From positions 1 through 64,000 of the forward strand of contig JAURMI010000010.1 of NCBI GenBank assembly GCA_030830785.1: DNA of 64,000 bases. The letters are read 5' to 3'. Both the position numbers and the translations under genes were made by a program. Positions 7,942-33,190 of this stretch are shown one piece after another. Numbering within the stretch: position 1 is the first letter of the stretch; every line of letters begins with the position of its first letter. The DNA is from Crocinitomicaceae bacterium (GTDB lineage: Bacteria > Bacteroidota > Bacteroidia > Flavobacteriales_D > Crocinitomicaceae). The notes under the pieces are model-generated. The model saw nothing but the letters and a program-made list of their open reading frames with translations. It did not search any database and had not been told where the DNA came from.

Positions 7942-9345
7942 TTATTTAAACACCCATCGTACTAAATCTGCGCCATTGGCATATACCATCAAAGAAAGCA
8001 ATAAAAATATTCCAATATACTGAGCCACCTCTAAAACCCTTTGAGGCGCTTCTTTACCAGTAATCATTTCATAAAGCAAAAACACAACATGGCCCCCATC
8101 CAATGCTGGAATCGGCAAAATATTCATAAAAGCTAAAATAATGGAAAGTAAGGCGGTTGTATGCCAAAAGGCATACCAATCCCATTGCGCCGGAAAAAGA
8201 TTGCCTATTGTTGCAAAACCACCAATTTGTGTTGCCCCCTTTTTAGTAAATACAAACTTGAATTGATTGACATAATCAGATAAAATATTGTAACCGTAAG
8301 AAGCGCCTATGCTTATGCTTTGCATAAAAGTGTATTCTTTTTGAATTAGTGCGGCTTGATCTAGCATTGTCGTGTTAGTTAAAACCCCAATGGTTCCATC
8401 TGACTTTACTTTTACGCTATGGGTAATGGTGTCTTTGGCATCTCCATTTTGCGCCACCATTATTTCAACTGTTTTGTTTTTGTTATTAAATAGTGTCGAC
8501 TGAAATTCATCATAATATTGAATGTTTTGTCCGTTGACTTTGAACACAATATCTTTTGAAGTTATCCCTCCTTTTTGGGCTGGAGAGCCCTTTGACACCT
8601 CTTCAATTGACACGTTTTGAGCGCGTAAGGAGAAAGCCGGAAAAGCCCCAACTTCAAATAGTTTTTGGTCAATGTCTGATGGTAGTTTAATTTTTTCTAT
8701 TTGACCCCCGGGGTGTTTAATGGTAATATTTCTTGCTCCCCGAAGTAATATTTCTTTATTGATTTCCTCTAGATTTAGCGGTTGTTTTGATTCTATGTCC
8801 ACTACTTTGTCGCCGCTGTATATGCCGTATTGATTCAAATAAGGATGAACCCCTAACCCTGCCTTGAGTTTAGTTTGGTCTAGGGTTGGTTGTCCCCAGG
8901 TAAAAACAACACCTATATAAATAATAAACCCTAAAATGAGATTAACGGTAACACCGCCGATCATTATTATAAGTCTTTGCCACGCCTTTTTACTTCTAAA
9001 CTCCCAAGGTTGGGGCTCGTTTTTTAATTGTTCGGTATCCATAGACTCGTCTATCATACCGGCAATTTTCACATAACCACCCAGCGGAACCCAGCCTATG
9101 CCCCACTCTGTAGTGTTGGGGTCTTCACTCCAATCTGATGGTTCTTTTTTGCTGAACCATGATTTTTTAATTTTTCCCTTAACTCTTTTCCAACGAAAAA
9201 AAGAAAAATACGGGTTGAAAAAAAGATAGAATTTTTCAACGCGTGTTTTAAATAGTTTTGCAGGTATAAAGTGTCCCAATTCATGTAGCGTCACTAATAG
9301 CGCCAATGAGGTTAAAAGTTGAGCTGCTTTTATTAAAAAGTCCAT
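7942..9345 (-). CDS. rseP: RIP-family zinc metalloprotease RseP
   Basis: This 467-residue inner-membrane site-2 protease cleaves membrane-embedded substrates such as anti-sigma factors or signal-peptide remnants. The zinc motif HELGH is at residues 21-25 in the first transmembrane helix. The second ligand motif NILPIPALDGGH is at 408-419. A PDZ region lies between them (about 200-300, with the GSPAQKGGI loop). Further helices are near 125-150, 370-400 and 435-455. Length and layout are typical. The -7 element TATCTTTG lies about 20 bases before the ATG (see 9365-9397), so it can be expressed separately from polA. paaZ follows directly. No sigmaE or anti-sigma gene is nearby. Confidence 0.95.
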   Translation of the reverse strand: MDFLIKAAQLLTSLALLVTLHELGHFIPAKLFKTRVEKFYLFFNPYFSFFRWKRVKGKIKKSWFSKKEPSDWSEDPNTTEWGIGWVPLGGYVKIAGMIDESMDTEQLKNEPQPWEFRSKKAWQRLIIMIGGVTVNLILGFIIYIGVVFTWGQPTLDQTKLKAGLGVHPYLNQYGIYSGDKVVDIESKQPLNLEEINKEILLRGARNITIKHPGGQIEKIKLPSDIDQKLFEVGAFPAFSLRAQNVSIEEVSKGSPAQKGGITSKDIVFKVNGQNIQYYDEFQSTLFNNKNKTVEIMVAQNGDAKDTITHSVKVKSDGTIGVLTNTTMLDQAALIQKEYTFMQSISIGASYGYNILSDYVNQFKFVFTKKGATQIGGFATIGNLFPAQWDWYAFWHTTALLSIILAFMNILPIPALDGGHVVFLLYEMITGKEAPQRVLEVAQYIGIFLLLSLMVYANGADLVRWVFK

Positions 9346-9364
9346 AATTTCATTTTTTCAATTA

Positions 9365-9397
9365 CAAAGATACCGTAAGTTTATTAGTGTGCCTCAA
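9365..9397 (-). promoter_or_regulatory. Probable promoter of rseP-paaZ
   Basis: On the minus strand, TTG (9397-9395, inside the last polA codons) lies 22 bases upstream of TATCTTTG (9372-9365). This fits the Bacteroidota TTG / TAnnTTTG pair. The rseP ATG begins 19 bases after the -7 element. Confidence 0.5.
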
Positions 9398-12191
9398 GCC
9401 AATTTTTAGCTGCCTTCATTTCTACAACCATGGGCACTTCCATCTCTACTGCGCTTTCCATGGCTTTTTTGACGAGTTGTTGCATGGTTGTTAATTCATC
9501 TTGGTGCACATCAAAAACCAATTCGTCATGAACTTGTAATATCATTTTAGATTTCAGTTGTTCTTGACTCATAGCTTTATGAACGGCAACCATGGCCAAT
9601 TTAATGATGTCGGCTGCGGAGCCCTGAATTGGAGCGTTGATTGCATTGCGCTCAGCAAAACCTCGAACAACAGCATTGGCTGAATGTATATCTGGTAAAT
9701 ACCTGCGGCGTTTTAAAATGGTTTCCACATAGCCTGTTTCTCTAGCTTGTGCAATAACGTTATTCATATATGACTTAATTGTGCTGTATTGATCAAAATA
9801 GGCGTCAATAATATTCTTGGCTTCTGTCCTCGAAATACGTAAGTTTTGTGCCAAACCAAAAGCAGATTGTCCATATATTATTCCAAAATTAACCGCTTTA
9901 GCTGCGCTTCTCTGTTCTCTTGTTACCTCACTTATTGCTGTGTGGAAAACTTTGGCGGCAGTTGCCGCATGAATATCATGGCCGCTTTTAAATGCAGCAA
10001 TCATATTTTCGTCTTTGGCCAATGCAGCTATGATGCGCAACTCAATTTGCGAATAGTCGACGGCCATTAATAGATAATCAGCGCTTCGTGGAACAAAAGC
10101 ACGCCTGATTTCGCGGCCTTTAGCCGAGCGCACTGGAATATTTTGCAAATTAGGGTTGTTGGAGCTCAAACGGCCGGTAGCCGTTATTGTTTGCATGAAA
10201 TTACTATGAATGCGCTTGTCTACAGGATCACAAAGTGTAGGTAATGGGTCTACGTATGTGCTTTTGAGTTTGCGCAGCTGTCGGTATTCTAAAATATTGC
10301 CTATGATTGGGTGGTCATGTTCATGTTTTTGAAGAACGTCTTCTGATGTTGCGTATTGCCCTGTTTTTGTCTTTTTTGCTTTACTTGAAATTTGTAGTTT
10401 TTCAAATAAAATTTCACCTAACTGTTTTGGTGAGTCAATGTTGAAATCTTGTCCGGCAAGGGTTTTAATTTCTTTGTCCAAAAAAATAAGTTTTTCATCT
10501 AACTCTATTGAATATTGGTTTAGCGCAGCTGCATCAATGGCTATGCCTTCTTGCTCAATATCTTTTAATACACTTACAAGTGGCATTTCAACATCATAAA
10601 ACAGCGTGTTGAGGTGCGGCTTCTGTATTTCGGGTGAAAACACCTGTTTAAGCTGAAATGTAATGTCTGCGTCTTCACATGCATAATCCTTAATTTGATC
10701 AGCAAAAAGGTCTGCCATATTTGCTTGGTTTTTACCCTTTTTTCCGATGAGCTCTTCTATTGCTATTGGTTGATAGTTTAAATAATAATTTGCGAGAAAA
10801 TCCATTCCTTGTTTGGCTTCTGGATTAATTAAATATTGCGCAATCATCGTGTCAAATAAAGGGCCTTTTAACCTGACTTCATACCTATTCAATACCTTTA
10901 AATCGAATTTAATGTTGTGTGCGATTTTTTCAATTGAATCGCTTTCGAACACTTCAATAAATTCATGTAAAATCTCTTTTGTCTTTTGAAAATCTGGCGG
11001 AACAGGTATATAAAAAGCCTCCTTTGGTTTATAAGAGAATGAAAATCCTACTAGATCGGCGTGTAGTGCATCAATTGAATTTGTTTCAGTATCAAAACAA
11101 ACTTCACGTTGATTTAAAAGCAGCTCGAGTAATTCTTTTCGCTCTTCGGGGTTTGAAACGAGGTGATAGCTTGGTTTTTCTGTGGCTATTGTCTTATAGC
11201 TTGCAGTAATGATTGGTTCTTGTGGCTCAAGCATACTTTGAGCACCAAACAAATCAAGTTGGTCTTGACCCTGCGCCTTAATTGGTTTGGGGGCTGGGGC
11301 CTCTTCTCCCAGAATTCGTTTAGATAATGTTCTAAACTCAAGCTCAGTAAAAATCGTGCTAATTGCCTCTGGATTTACATCGCTCACCTCCAAATCTTTT
11401 TCGTTAAATTCAACCGGTACATTTCTAATAATTGTAGCCAGTGATTTTGACATTAACCCTTGGTCCTTGAAATTTTCAACGTTTTCTTTTTGTTTGCCTT
11501 TTAATTCGTGGCTGTGTTCAAATAAGGCCTCCATAGAACCATATTTTGCCACCAAAATTTTAGCTGTTTTTTCTCCAATACCGGGAATACCAGGAATATT
11601 ATCTGATGCGTCACCCCAAAGCCCCAAAATATCAATAACTTGAATTGGGTTTTGTATTTCAAATTTTTCACAAACTTCTTTAACCCCTAATATTTCTGGT
11701 GGGTTGCCACCTCGGCCCGGTTTATAAATAAAGGTATTAGGACTTACTAATTGGGCATAATCTTTATCTGGAGTCATCATGTAGGTAACAAAACCTTGTT
11801 GTTCTGCAATACCCGCAACAGTTCCAATGACATCGTCTGCTTCAAAACCCGCTACCTCTAAAATTGGGATGTTAAAGGCGCTGATGATTTGCTTAATAGG
11901 CCAAATCATTGAGCGAATGTCTTCTGGCATCTCCTCGCGTTGTGCTTTATAATCTTCAAATTCTTCTTGGCGCTGAGTCGATCCTCCGGGTGGGTCAAAA
12001 ACTACGGCTATATGTGAGGGTTGTTCTGTTTTTAGCACATCTATTAGCACATTGGTAAAACCAAAGGCGGCCGATGTGTTCACTCCTTTTGAGCTCACGC
12101 GCGGGTTTTTTGCAAAGGCAAAATAAGCACGGTAAATGAGCGCGTAAGCATCTAATAAAAACAGTTTTTTAGGGGTTTGCAAAGATCGCAT
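9384..12191 (-). CDS. polA: DNA polymerase I
   Basis: This 935-residue repair and Okazaki-fragment polymerase has all three domains. The 5'-3' exonuclease spans about 1-300 (start DAYALIYRAYF). The 3'-5' proofreading exonuclease spans about 345-535 with its metal motifs intact: DTE in CFDTETNS, NIKFD, and YACEDAD. The polymerase domain spans about 560-935 with motif A DYSQIELRI, motif B RSAAKAVNFGIIYG and motif C VHDELVF. It is therefore predicted to proofread, unlike Taq-type enzymes. Its ATG overlaps the stop of the upstream lipoprotein gene by one base (TAATG), pointing to translational coupling. It is the third gene of the M20 dipeptidase / lipoprotein / polA run. Confidence 0.97.
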   Translation of the reverse strand: MRSLQTPKKLFLLDAYALIYRAYFAFAKNPRVSSKGVNTSAAFGFTNVLIDVLKTEQPSHIAVVFDPPGGSTQRQEEFEDYKAQREEMPEDIRSMIWPIKQIISAFNIPILEVAGFEADDVIGTVAGIAEQQGFVTYMMTPDKDYAQLVSPNTFIYKPGRGGNPPEILGVKEVCEKFEIQNPIQVIDILGLWGDASDNIPGIPGIGEKTAKILVAKYGSMEALFEHSHELKGKQKENVENFKDQGLMSKSLATIIRNVPVEFNEKDLEVSDVNPEAISTIFTELEFRTLSKRILGEEAPAPKPIKAQGQDQLDLFGAQSMLEPQEPIITASYKTIATEKPSYHLVSNPEERKELLELLLNQREVCFDTETNSIDALHADLVGFSFSYKPKEAFYIPVPPDFQKTKEILHEFIEVFESDSIEKIAHNIKFDLKVLNRYEVRLKGPLFDTMIAQYLINPEAKQGMDFLANYYLNYQPIAIEELIGKKGKNQANMADLFADQIKDYACEDADITFQLKQVFSPEIQKPHLNTLFYDVEMPLVSVLKDIEQEGIAIDAAALNQYSIELDEKLIFLDKEIKTLAGQDFNIDSPKQLGEILFEKLQISSKAKKTKTGQYATSEDVLQKHEHDHPIIGNILEYRQLRKLKSTYVDPLPTLCDPVDKRIHSNFMQTITATGRLSSNNPNLQNIPVRSAKGREIRRAFVPRSADYLLMAVDYSQIELRIIAALAKDENMIAAFKSGHDIHAATAAKVFHTAISEVTREQRSAAKAVNFGIIYGQSAFGLAQNLRISRTEAKNIIDAYFDQYSTIKSYMNNVIAQARETGYVETILKRRRYLPDIHSANAVVRGFAERNAINAPIQGSAADIIKLAMVAVHKAMSQEQLKSKMILQVHDELVFDVHQDELTTMQQLVKKAMESAVEMEVPMVVEMKAAKNWLEAH

Positions 12192-26511: not shown

Positions 26512-26546
26512 TTTCTTTAAAATTTAATCTGTTTTTATCTATTTAT

Positions 26547-26831
26547 TTATAAACAAAGTTAAAATAATCGAGGGTACAACTCAATAAATACATTGAGCTT
26601 TTAAACACAAGGGGTTCTTTTTTAGTGAAAATCTTGTTTATAATAATTAATAATATAATTTGCATAAATCTTCAAAAATGTGAAAGCAAAAGAAGATTGT
26701 ATAAACAAAATATTGTTTGTGAGATTTATACAGTTATTTTCAACTGTATTTTTAACTTATTTATGAATTTTAAATATTCTTTTAATAAACAATTTATAAA
26801 TGTATTTTATTGTTTATAACACCATAAACAA
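26547..26831. repeat. Six-copy cluster of the 8-mer ATAAACAA / TTGTTTAT
   Basis: Exact copies lie at 26549-26556 (+), 26634-26641 (-), 26701-26708 (+), 26785-26792 (+), 26810-26817 (-) and 26824-26831 (+). Three extend to the 10-mer TTATAAACAA (26547, 26634, 26810). A near copy TTGTTTGT is at 26713. The copies at 26785 and 26810 face each other and form a 9-bp inverted repeat. Even at this base composition I would expect well under one copy by chance. Confidence 0.65.
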
Positions 26832-26920
26832 TTGATTATTAATTATTTATTATGTTTTTATAGTCAATAACTTGTTCATTAAGTAAAGGTGTTTTTTCAT
26901 AAAAATTTTTAAACTTCTTT

Positions 26921-26929
26921 TTATTCACA
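26921..26929 (+). promoter_or_regulatory. DnaA-box match (TTATTCACA)
   Basis: This matches the consensus TTWTNCACA exactly and is the only such match I found in the spacer. A single 9-mer is weak evidence by itself; it matters because of the A+T-rich context and the nearby parS sites. Confidence 0.4.
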
Positions 26930-27015
26930 TTTCAACATCCTTAATAACAATAATAATTTTCTTTTTTTATTTAAAAATCTATTTTATTAATTATTAAGCT
27001 TGGGCTTATTGGAAC

Positions 27016-27023
27016 TATTTTTG
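27016..27023 (+). promoter_or_regulatory. -7 promoter element of the DUF4175 operon
   Basis: TATTTTTG matches TAnnTTTG and lies 31 bases upstream of the ATG at 27055, at the right-hand end of the A+T-rich spacer. Confidence 0.45.
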
Positions 27024-27054
27024 TAAGTCCAAAATGAAATATTAGATTTATTCT

Positions 27055-30438: not shown

Positions 30439-30852
30439 ATGAAAGAGGGTTTTAAAGTTGTTAAAGAACTTAGTTTAGAGTCTGATTATCAGTCACTTAT
30501 AGATGTAGAAAATTTAGTTGGTTCTGTATGTGATGATTTTGGAATTCAGACAGACGCTTTTGGAAATGTTTTAATTGCTGTTTCTGAAGCGGTAAATAAC
30601 GCCATTCAACACGGCAATAAGGAAAAGCAATCCGCCCGAGTTTACTTACAAGTTGGCACCTCCACAGACCGTTTTTATATTCAAGTAAAAGATGAAGGGC
30701 CTGGCTTTTCGCATCAAGACCTTCCCGATCCAACTGCGCCTGAGAACCTGTTAAAAGATAGCGGTAGAGGGGTTTATTTAATGAAAAATCTGGCAGATGA
30801 AGTGGAATTTTTGCAAGCTGGAAACACGGTAAATTTATATTTCCATAAATGA
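30439..30852 (+). CDS. RsbW-like ATP-binding protein (anti-sigma factor kinase fold)
   Basis: This 137-residue GHKL ATPase-domain protein resembles serine kinases that switch anti-sigma factors. The N box VSEAVNNAIQHGN (with the Mg-binding Asn), the G1 motif VKDEGPGF and the G2 motif GRGVYLMKNLADEV are intact, so ATP binding is expected. No anti-anti-sigma (STAS) or PP2C partner is encoded nearby, so its target is unknown. I choose the ATG at 30439 over a TTG two codons upstream. Its stop overlaps the ybeY ATG by four bases (ATGA), giving tight coupling. Confidence 0.9.
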   Translation: MKEGFKVVKELSLESDYQSLIDVENLVGSVCDDFGIQTDAFGNVLIAVSEAVNNAIQHGNKEKQSARVYLQVGTSTDRFYIQVKDEGPGFSHQDLPDPTAPENLLKDSGRGVYLMKNLADEVEFLQAGNTVNLYFHK

Positions 30853-31289
30853 TTTCAATTATTTGTATTGAACAAAGTTTACCCAAATTTTTTAGAAAGA
30901 ACAATTTAAAAAAGTTTTCGAGTGCAATTGTAAAAGAAGAATTAAAGGAGCTCGGTGACCTTAGTTTTGTCTTTGCAAGCGACAATTATTTACTAGATTT
31001 AAATAAGCAGTTTTTAGAGCACGATTATTATACCGATGTAATCACTTTTGATTACTCTATCAAAGGCACTATAAGTGGAGACGTTGTTATTTCTTTAGAT
31101 AGAGTTAAGGACAATGCAGACCGACTCGGAGCACCCTTAAAACAAGAGCTGCATCGCGTTTGTTTTCATGGTTTATTGCATCTTTGTGGATATAAAGATA
31201 AAAGCCAAAAAGACATTAAAACAATGCGGGCTAAAGAAGATTATTATTTAAATAAATTTGTTTCACGTGAAACAAACGAGGATAACTAA
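30849..31289 (+). CDS. ybeY: Endoribonuclease YbeY
   Basis: This 146-residue metal-dependent endoribonuclease acts in 16S rRNA 3'-end maturation and ribosome quality control. The metal motif is [11 protein letters not shown]. The first two histidines of the H-x3-H-x5-H signature are present, but the third position is Asp; I recall this form from other Bacteroidota, and Asp can still bind zinc. The C-terminal codons contain a complete parS site (31259-31274) whose sequence fixes residues VSRET. It overlaps the upstream ATPase by four bases and is followed 29 bases later by mnmG. Confidence 0.93.
31259..31274. promoter_or_regulatory. parS centromere site 1 (perfect palindrome)
   Basis: TGTTTCACGTGAAACA matches the bacterial parS consensus at every position, and the palindrome extends two more bases each side (31257-31276). 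ParB binds such sites and spreads along the DNA for chromosome segregation. It lies inside the 3' end of ybeY. parA and parB themselves are not in the window. Confidence 0.88.
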
Positions 31290-31293
31290 CACT

Positions 31294-31309
31294 TGTTTCA
31301 CGTGGAACA
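31294..31309. promoter_or_regulatory. parS centromere site 2
   Basis: TGTTTCACGTGGAACA is the reverse complement of TGTTCCACGTGAAACA, the classical Bacillus subtilis parS. It starts 35 bases after the start of site 1, in the ybeY-mnmG gap, 10 bases before the mnmG ATG. Bound ParB could also affect mnmG expression. Confidence 0.88.
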
Positions 31310-31318
31310 CACCATAAA

Positions 31319-33190
31319 ATGTTAGCACATTACGATGTAATAGTTGTTGGGGCTGGCCACGCGGGATGTGAGGCAGCAAATGCCGCAGCCAAAATGGGCA
31401 GCAAGGTTTTGTTGGTAACAATGAACATGAACACCATCGCCCAAATGAGCTGCAATCCGGCAATGGGTGGTGTGGCAAAAGGTCAAATAATTCGTGAAAT
31501 TGATGCGCTTGGTGGCGGCTCGGGAATTGTAAGCGACAAGAGTGCAATACAATTTAGAATGCTCAATAGATCAAAAGGGCCAGCAATGTGGTCTCCACGA
31601 ACACAGAATGACCGCGCTCTGTTCTCCATGGAGTGGCGCTATTTATTAGAGCAAAATCCAAACGTGGATTTCTGGCAAGACATGTGTGTGGGAGTTATAG
31701 TTGAAAAAAACAAAGTAATAGGTGTACAACTCGCCATGGGAACCAAAGTGTTTGGCTCAAGTGTTGTATTAACAAACGGAACTTTTTTAAACGGACTTAT
31801 TCATTTAGGGGAAAAACAGTTTGGCGGTGGAAGGGCAGGAGAAAAAGCGGCCACAGGATTAACCGAAAGCTTAGTTATGTTGGGTTTTGAATCTGGGCGA
31901 ATGAAAACAGGAACCCCGCCAAGGGTTGACGGTAGAAGTCTAGATTATTCAAAGATGGAGGAACAACACGGTGATGAAAACCCATCGAAATTCAGTTTTT
32001 CTAATACACAACCATTACAAAAACAACTTTCTTGCCACATCACATATACCAATGAGCGCACACACGATTTGTTGCGCACTGGTTTTGATAGGTCTCCAAT
32101 GTTCAATGGAGCTATAAAGAGTAGCGGCCCAAGATATTGTCCAAGCATTGAGGATAAAATTTCTCGTTTTGTGGATCGTGAGCGACACCAAATCTTTGTT
32201 GAGCCCGAAGGGTGGAATACCGTTGAAATTTATGTAAATGGGTTCAGCACCTCTCTTCCTGAAGAAGTGCAATTTGATGCATTAAAAAGTATTATTGGCT
32301 TTGAAAACGCTAAAATGTTTCGGCCAGGATACGCCATAGAGTATGATTATTTTCCCCCAACACAACTTAAACACACCCTTGAAACAAAACCAATAGAAAA
32401 CTTGTTTTTTGCAGGACAAATAAACGGAACCACCGGATACGAGGAGGCGGCAAGCCAGGGTTTAATGGCGGGAATTAATGCGCATTTAAAAACACATGAA
32501 AAAGAACCCTTTGTTTTATCGCGAAGCGAAGCATACATAGGTGTGTTGATAGATGATTTAATAACTAAAGGGACTAACGAGCCTTACAGAATGTTTACTA
32601 GCCGTGCCGAATTTAGAATTCTTTTACGTCAAGACAATGCGGACGAAAGACTTTCTTATTTAGGGCATAGACTTGGTTTAGTTAGTGATGAGCTAATGCA
32701 GAAAGTTATAAATAAACAAAGTTTAACAAATGAATTAATACAAGCTTTACGTCAAATAGGTGTTAGCCCCAATGAGGCAAACCCAATTTTAGTAAATAAA
32801 AATTCCTCTCCAATAAATCAACAAATCAAAGCAAGTTCTATTTTAACCAGACCACACATAACACTTGAAGACATAAAACAAATGAGTGATCAGGTGGTAA
32901 ATTGTGTTGAGAAAATTGAGAAAACGGACCCGTTAGCAGTAGAGCAGGCCGAAATTCTTTTAAAATATGAGGGATACATAGAAAGAGAACAGGAACAGGC
33001 AGAAAAACACCATCGATTAGAGTCTTTGTTGTTACCGGCTAAATTAGATTATAAAAAAATTAAAAACCTTAGTATTGAGGCTAAAGAAAAGCTGAATCAA
33101 ATTCAACCCAAAACACTTGGGCAGGCAGCACGGGTTTCCGGCGTTTCACCAAGTGATATTTCAGTGCTTTTAGTTCATTTAGGACGGTAA
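31319..33190 (+). CDS. mnmG: tRNA uridine-5-carboxymethylaminomethyl modification enzyme MnmG (GidA)
   Basis: This 623-residue FAD enzyme works with MnmE to put the cmnm5 group on the wobble uridine of several tRNAs. The dinucleotide fold [10 protein letters not shown] (GxGxxG at 11-16) starts the protein. The family segments [37 protein letters not shown] and [19 protein letters not shown] are present, and the C-terminal helical MnmE-binding domain (about 545-623) is complete. In many bacteria this gene sits beside the replication origin, and here two parS sites lie directly upstream. mnmE is not in the window. Confidence 0.97.

Follow-up and report, generated by a model that had tools for sequence, protein, structure and literature searches.

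The stretch of DNA analysed here (the window) comprises 64,000 nucleotides from a Crocinitomicaceae bacterium. Two short palindromic sites lie where ybeY gives way to mnmG, and an AT-rich intergenic region lies upstream of them:

26512..27054, no strand assigned: candidate oriC, a 543-base divergent intergenic region that includes the window's most GC-poor 400 bp (16.8% GC)
30849..31289, plus strand: ybeY (rRNA maturation RNase), 93.7 bits against TIGR00043 (cut-off 45)
31259..31274, no strand assigned: parS site 1, the perfect palindrome TGTTTCACGTGAAACA within the 3' end of ybeY; conserved in relatives
31294..31309, no strand assigned: parS site 2, TGTTTCACGTGGAACA on the plus strand and TGTTCCACGTGAAACA on the minus strand; conserved in relatives
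31319..33190, plus strand: mnmG (gidA), 852.9 bits against TIGR00136 (cut-off 524.85)

ParABS is a known chromosome segregation system, and chromosomal parS sites may lie inside genes, as site 1 does here. The initial annotation had placed two parS 16-mers at this junction; both are present, and site 1 is a perfect palindrome as claimed. The two sites, which start 35 bases apart, fit the 16-base parS palindrome TGTTNCACGTGAAACA, site 2 being separated from the perfect palindrome of site 1 by one base. The minus-strand reading of site 2 is what we take to be the Bacillus subtilis form of parS. The final codons of ybeY span site 1 and give VSRET in the ybeY frame, and a gap of 9 bases lies between the end of site 2 and the ATG of mnmG (31319).

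Conservation of the sites was examined in samples of increasing breadth. When 120 genomes of the order were searched, 78 had a site with at most one mismatch to the perfect palindrome, compared with 9 for the reversed control pattern; the other 42 had none under this criterion, which is stricter than the one used later for the phylum. Such a site was found in 12 of 13 genomes of the window's genus and in 29 of 31 of its family, the genomes without one being G082 (same genus) and G052 (same family). The search yielded 29 loci besides that of the window, one per genome and all selected by a match. All 24 loci from the same family (L011-L034) had one or more sites where ybeY meets mnmG, and in the five from other families (L006-L010) the sites lay beyond the 3' end of mnmG.

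A set of named relatives was then formed from the best 80 MnmG relatives, including Crocinitomicaceae, Fluviicola, Brumimicrobium, Salibacter, Algoriphagus, Echinicola, Belliella and Rufibacter; 77 of these carried ybeY in the locus. For this set and for the phylum, a site was counted when it had at most one mismatch to TGTTYCACGTGRAACA, and the start of ybeY was taken as the aligned start. A site was present between the ybeY start and mnmG in 74 of the 77 ybeY-bearing loci, the three without one being L086, L089 and L099. In many relatives the site ended 6-11 bases ahead of the mnmG start codon. A further parS-like site, 2-9 bases after the last MnmG codon and overlapping or just past the stop, was seen in some loci, e.g. 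L048, L055, L064, L067, L077, L079, L088, L106 and L107, so that mnmG is bracketed by parS there. The window itself has no parS-like site at the mnmG stop.

The phylum sample consisted of 118 genomes; mnmG was located in 117 of them, G233 giving no real match. At least one site occurred in 112 of the 118 genomes, against 17 for the reversed control. A site lay within 2 kb of mnmG in 105 of the 117 genomes, and 212 of the 260 sites were found there. In the 100 genomes for which the mnmG neighbourhood was fetched, 88 had a site within 2 kb, and these neighbourhoods held 167 of the 206 sites of those genomes; for the remaining 17 genomes positions were compared by hand, and all 17 had a site near mnmG (45 of 54 sites). 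Conservation in relatives, which had been proposed as a check on the parS claim, is thus borne out both in the named set (74 of 77 loci) and in the phylum sample (105 of 117 genomes).

The 12 of 117 phylum genomes that had no site with at most one mismatch within 2 kb of mnmG are the following:

G132, G153, G199, G172, G154, G226, G121, G205, G208, G189, G156, G181: no parS within 2 kb of mnmG

Five of these (G199, G172, G154, G205, G208) had no site anywhere in the genome. Two or more sites lay elsewhere in G132, G153, G226 and G181, and one in G156 and G189; the two sites of G121 look like chance. Versions with two mismatches adjoined mnmG in G199, G172, G154, G121, G205 and G189. The genomes with sites away from mnmG belong to families f18 (G156, G181), f20 (G189), f27 (G132, G153) and f41 (G226), and the positions of those sites are known for G156, G181 and G189.

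No ybeY was found beside mnmG in G156 and G181, nor in 88 genomes outside the class in a tblastn search that used YbeY of the window as query and may overlook distant ybeY genes. Since 82 of these 88 genomes keep parS at mnmG, parS travels with mnmG, and ybeY is only a local neighbour. The ybeY/mnmG junction, offered by the initial annotation as the landmark of the pair, is therefore conserved as a position, but the constant partner is mnmG and not ybeY. The parS pair itself is an ordinary known element in a very stable place, and what may surprise is its phylum-wide tie to mnmG. Among the matches listed in a literature search, no title or abstract opening described parS at mnmG for Bacteroidota; Livny 2007, which is said to be the founding survey of parS, may state such a tie. 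According to passages of PMC2768785, Blattabacterium, an endosymbiont of the Bacteroidota, is without dnaA, gidA and parA.

The placement of the sites relative to mnmG bears on what they are for. In the 88 phylum genomes, out of 100 fetched, that have a site within 2 kb, sites were found only downstream of mnmG in 36, on both sides in 35 and only upstream in 17. The palindromes could be operators, either for an autonomous repressor or for ParB regulating mnmG, with segregation being secondary: the gap between site 2 and the mnmG start is 9 bases (6-11 bases for a site in many relatives), and a protein bound there would hinder mnmG expression. Against this, the distribution over the two sides of mnmG suits a tag of the locus and not a promoter element, and the motif is textbook parS in an assembly with a cognate ParB. 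We regard an operator function as improbable.

That ParB gave the only match to the ParB family in the assembly, and it lies on contig C26, not on the parS contig:

L035 7876-9652 (G000:C26; parA 8762-9652), strand not given: parA-parB; parA and the start of the parB open reading frame overlap

A ParA ATPase is thus encoded together with ParB. The motif KGGVGKTT is visible in ParA, whose matches to NCBIfam ParA-superfamily models were all below cut-off; the genes downstream of parAB on C26 appear dapB- and lepB-like, as judged by eye from the sequence. A lack of parB, which would have spoken against parS, was hence not encountered. ParB scored 183 bits against TIGR00180 (cut-off 58.45) and contains GERRFRA, a motif with a CTP-binding role in ParB. 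In an alignment with the Caulobacter protein (6t1f), this ParB has R, H, K and G at positions 173, 179, 184 and 201; the published numbering was reached by shifting the chain by 10, a value chosen to put R, T, A and G on these positions. R173 and G201 are helix-turn-helix residues of the parS type.

These residues bear on whether the window sites are nucleoid-occlusion (Noc) sites and not parS. Passages of PMC7383237 state that R173 and G201 are absolutely conserved in extant ParB and altered in Noc, that positions 179 and 184 are variable, and that K or R occupies 184 in about 28% of extant ParB. The sole ParB-type protein found in the assembly scored 235 bits against the Noc model and has K at 184, as in Noc. 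However, this score is below the Noc cut-off of 315, and position 184 is the one described as free to vary (PMC7383237, in the same passages). Positions 173 and 201 are of the ParB type and do not carry the Q173 and R201 of Noc, and the parS bases are retained in the window sites. An assignment to Noc is very unlikely.

The overlap of site 1 with ybeY raises the question of whether the sequence is kept because YbeY needs a C-terminal VSRET. Among the 77 ybeY-bearing loci of the best 80 MnmG relatives, the site is read in frame as V-S/P-R-E/G-T in 36, which would accord with a coding constraint. In five it is read in another ybeY frame (e.g. FHVKH), and in five it overlaps the ybeY stop codon, the stop in three of them being the site's own TGA. 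All sites lie beyond the ybeY stop in 28 loci, and three loci have no site. These counts use the site nearest the end of ybeY, and 12 loci without the YbeY motif were read from a fixed in-frame offset. Codons in the 36 in-frame loci are nearly identical, with two departures, both in the last codon; this codon use is little evidence and partly circular, because the sites were picked by DNA sequence. As site frames and positions vary among relatives, the constraint acts on DNA. Hence the overlap is incidental, a by-product of tight packing, with selection on the DNA site. The earlier claim that the YbeY C terminus is constrained by a DNA site stands insofar as site 1 is inside the ybeY frame; the site shapes this tail in certain lineages and not in others. 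Contradicted by the data on frame and position, and by the second copy (site 2) outside ybeY, the coding constraint was rejected and has hardly any probability left.

The whole assembly (1,901,471 bases, 26 contigs, 83% complete) was scanned for further sites. The only sites with up to two mismatches were the pair itself, so parS is rare and clustered here (two such sites in 1.90 Mb), and just two sites with three mismatches occurred elsewhere. Scattered matches of equal quality, for which the initial annotation had recommended a genome scan, were absent at up to two mismatches. With a first-order Markov model of the window, 0.0008 exact sites and 0.043 one-mismatch sites were expected by chance in 1.90 Mb. 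That the pair is chance or artefact is practically inconceivable: the shuffle control at three mismatches does not discriminate (two or more matches in 6 of 100 shuffles) and alone would not rule chance out, and the reversed control has one match at one mismatch in the assembly, but the Markov expectation and the same placement throughout the phylum sample contradict it, in agreement with the earlier judgement that a chance match is implausible.

To locate the sites relative to the replication origin, GC skew was computed for three single-contig relatives. In G106, of the same family, twenty 20-kb samples were taken. Their skew turns from negative to positive within 1.39-1.62 Mb and reverts within 3.94-4.17 Mb; a single sample, at 2.085 Mb, has the wrong sign. 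Over a continuous 400 kb of G106, the lowest of the printed points of cumulative skew was at about 1.758 Mb, in an AT-rich stretch; parS is at 1.746 Mb, some 12 kb away. For G174, of another family and coarsely sampled, the sample at 2.43 Mb precedes the switch and the one at 2.60 Mb follows it; parS, at 2.567 Mb, lies between the two. Coarse sampling of G109 gave weakly negative skew before parS (4.347 Mb) and weakly positive skew after it, and noisy values of either sign elsewhere. The skew of the window's own contig is indecisive and does not locate the origin. The expected proximity of parS to the origin is therefore supported by GC skew in relatives (densely sampled in G106, coarsely in G174, weakly in G109), but not in the contig for which it had been suggested.

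The genes dnaA and parB were found far from these sites. In the three relatives sampled for skew, dnaA was 0.75-1.9 Mb and parB 0.9-2.3 Mb from parS. Over 14 single-contig genomes, the distance from parB to mnmG ranged from 366 kb to 2.3 Mb, and dnaA was within 25 kb of mnmG in just two. In three single-contig genomes of the window's family, parB lay close to the point opposite parS, at 0.88-0.99 of the distance to it. For the eight single-contig Bacteroidia, dnaA and parB were each at least 0.74 Mb from mnmG, the dnaA distance being at least 1.4 Mb in six and 0.75 and 0.88 Mb in the other two. Seven of these eight (G109, G106, G100, G212, G174, G220, G148) keep parS with mnmG, and the eighth, G152, retains a one-mismatch site.

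Low GC, AT-rich counterparts in the family and the skew of relatives point to 26512-27054 as the candidate oriC of the window. This region, 4.2-4.7 kb from parS, contains one TTATTCACA and three TTATAAACA on either strand. An AT-rich stretch (below 32% GC) at a similar distance upstream of mnmG was present in 16 of 32 family-type sequences (31 loci and the window). The skew minimum of G106 is farther out from parS than the window's candidate. The 64-kb window has one TTATNCACA, inside the AT-rich stretch, and TTATCCACA with up to one mismatch was not enriched in the window (15 matches against 19.9 expected). When k-mers were counted in the AT-rich stretches, leaving out L043, which is too near a contig end, TTATAAACA and TTATACACA exceeded the Markov control, and unrelated words such as CCTTAATA outranked both; the k-mer excess is a weak sign of oriC.

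In loci of the Cytophagales type, TTATNCACA was clustered 4.3-5.0 kb past the mnmG start, where 53 copies fell in 16.8 kb, compared with 31 over 315 kb, and 13 of 24 loci had two or more of these boxes in that interval. The loci were 25 picked by hand, L091 being dropped as too short, and the interval was set after the TTATNCACA positions had been inspected. Dense DnaA-box-like clusters of TTATNCACA were noted in loci such as L092, L096-L098, L108 and L109. The cluster, 2.5-3 kb past the end of mnmG, is likely to be oriC in these loci.

The SMC condensin is the usual partner loaded at parS, common but not universal. Of 15 genomes tested against TIGR02168 (cut-off 567), six scored above the cut-off, namely G152 of the Bacteroidia and five of the six from outside the class; the sixth of these, G149, has SMC in two pieces. 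The other eight, all Bacteroidia (G212, G174, G220, G148, G109, G106, G100 and G000, the last being the window's 83% complete genome), gave nothing above 28 bits. Only one of the nine Bacteroidia genomes tested thus gave an SMC above the cut-off, which suggests that SMC was lost within Bacteroidia. Passages of PMC10197239 likewise report no known condensin in the two Bacteroidetes studied there.

Taken together, the sequence data make it almost certain that these two sites serve a ParABS segregation system as its chromosomal centromere (parS). Named relatives place the bacterium as Crocinitomicaceae-type, within the Flavobacteriales. The three outcomes named in the initial annotation as speaking against parS (scattered matches of equal quality, a missing parB, and a lack of conservation in relatives) all failed to appear. 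By analogy with established ParABS biology, ParB dimers would load at both sites as CTP-dependent clamps and spread from there across the mnmG neighbourhood close to oriC, and newly copied origins would be moved apart by ParA; parAB, sited elsewhere, would act in trans on parS. Most class relatives tested yielded no SMC, so the sites are probably retained for ParA-driven origin segregation (or for an unknown loader) rather than for SMC loading.

A broader view can be put forward tentatively, with somewhat less than even confidence. It may be that neither dnaA nor parAB but the unit of mnmG and parS is the fixed physical marker of the origin throughout Bacteroidota, taken in the broad GTDB sense. 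Much of Bacteroidia would then have an SMC-less centromere with parAB far away (near the terminus in the window's family), and ParB before the mnmG start may couple mnmG transcription to origin copying. The mnmG-parS unit could serve as a sequence-only origin finder across a large phylum where dnaA misleads, a use for which skew was checked in three of the eight single-contig Bacteroidia. Genomes that keep parS with no SMC found and with parAB distant would also be natural cases in which ParB-parS segregation is separable from condensin loading.

With the parS of Bacillus subtilis, Pseudomonas and Caulobacter, the window shares the 16-base consensus, clustered sites, a place near the origin and a cognate ParA and ParB. 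It differs from these ParABS systems in that parAB is unlinked from parS (in each of the 14 single-contig genomes, parB is 366 kb or more away from mnmG) and in that eight of the nine Bacteroidia tested gave no SMC above the cut-off. An ancestral origin gene cluster comprises gidA, gidB, parA, parB and dnaA, the 'origin genes' in passages of PMC2099444. Like this cluster, the arrangement described here has gidA (mnmG) where the skew changes sign, in all three sampled relatives; unlike it, dnaA and parB are at least 0.74 Mb from mnmG in eight single-contig Bacteroidia. In passages of PMC10197239, Hi-C links parS clusters to ori domains in gut bacteria, Bacteroides caecimuris among them; parS was used there to choose which skew shift is ori. 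A parS cluster with the origin domain, and an origin that is not systematically with dnaA, are common to the gut bacteria of those passages and to the genomes studied here. Unlike the present analysis, the same passages tie parS neither to mnmG nor to ybeY and hold no phylum-wide test. The interesting part is this arrangement: anchored at mnmG, unlinked from parAB, usually unlinked from dnaA and often without detectable SMC.
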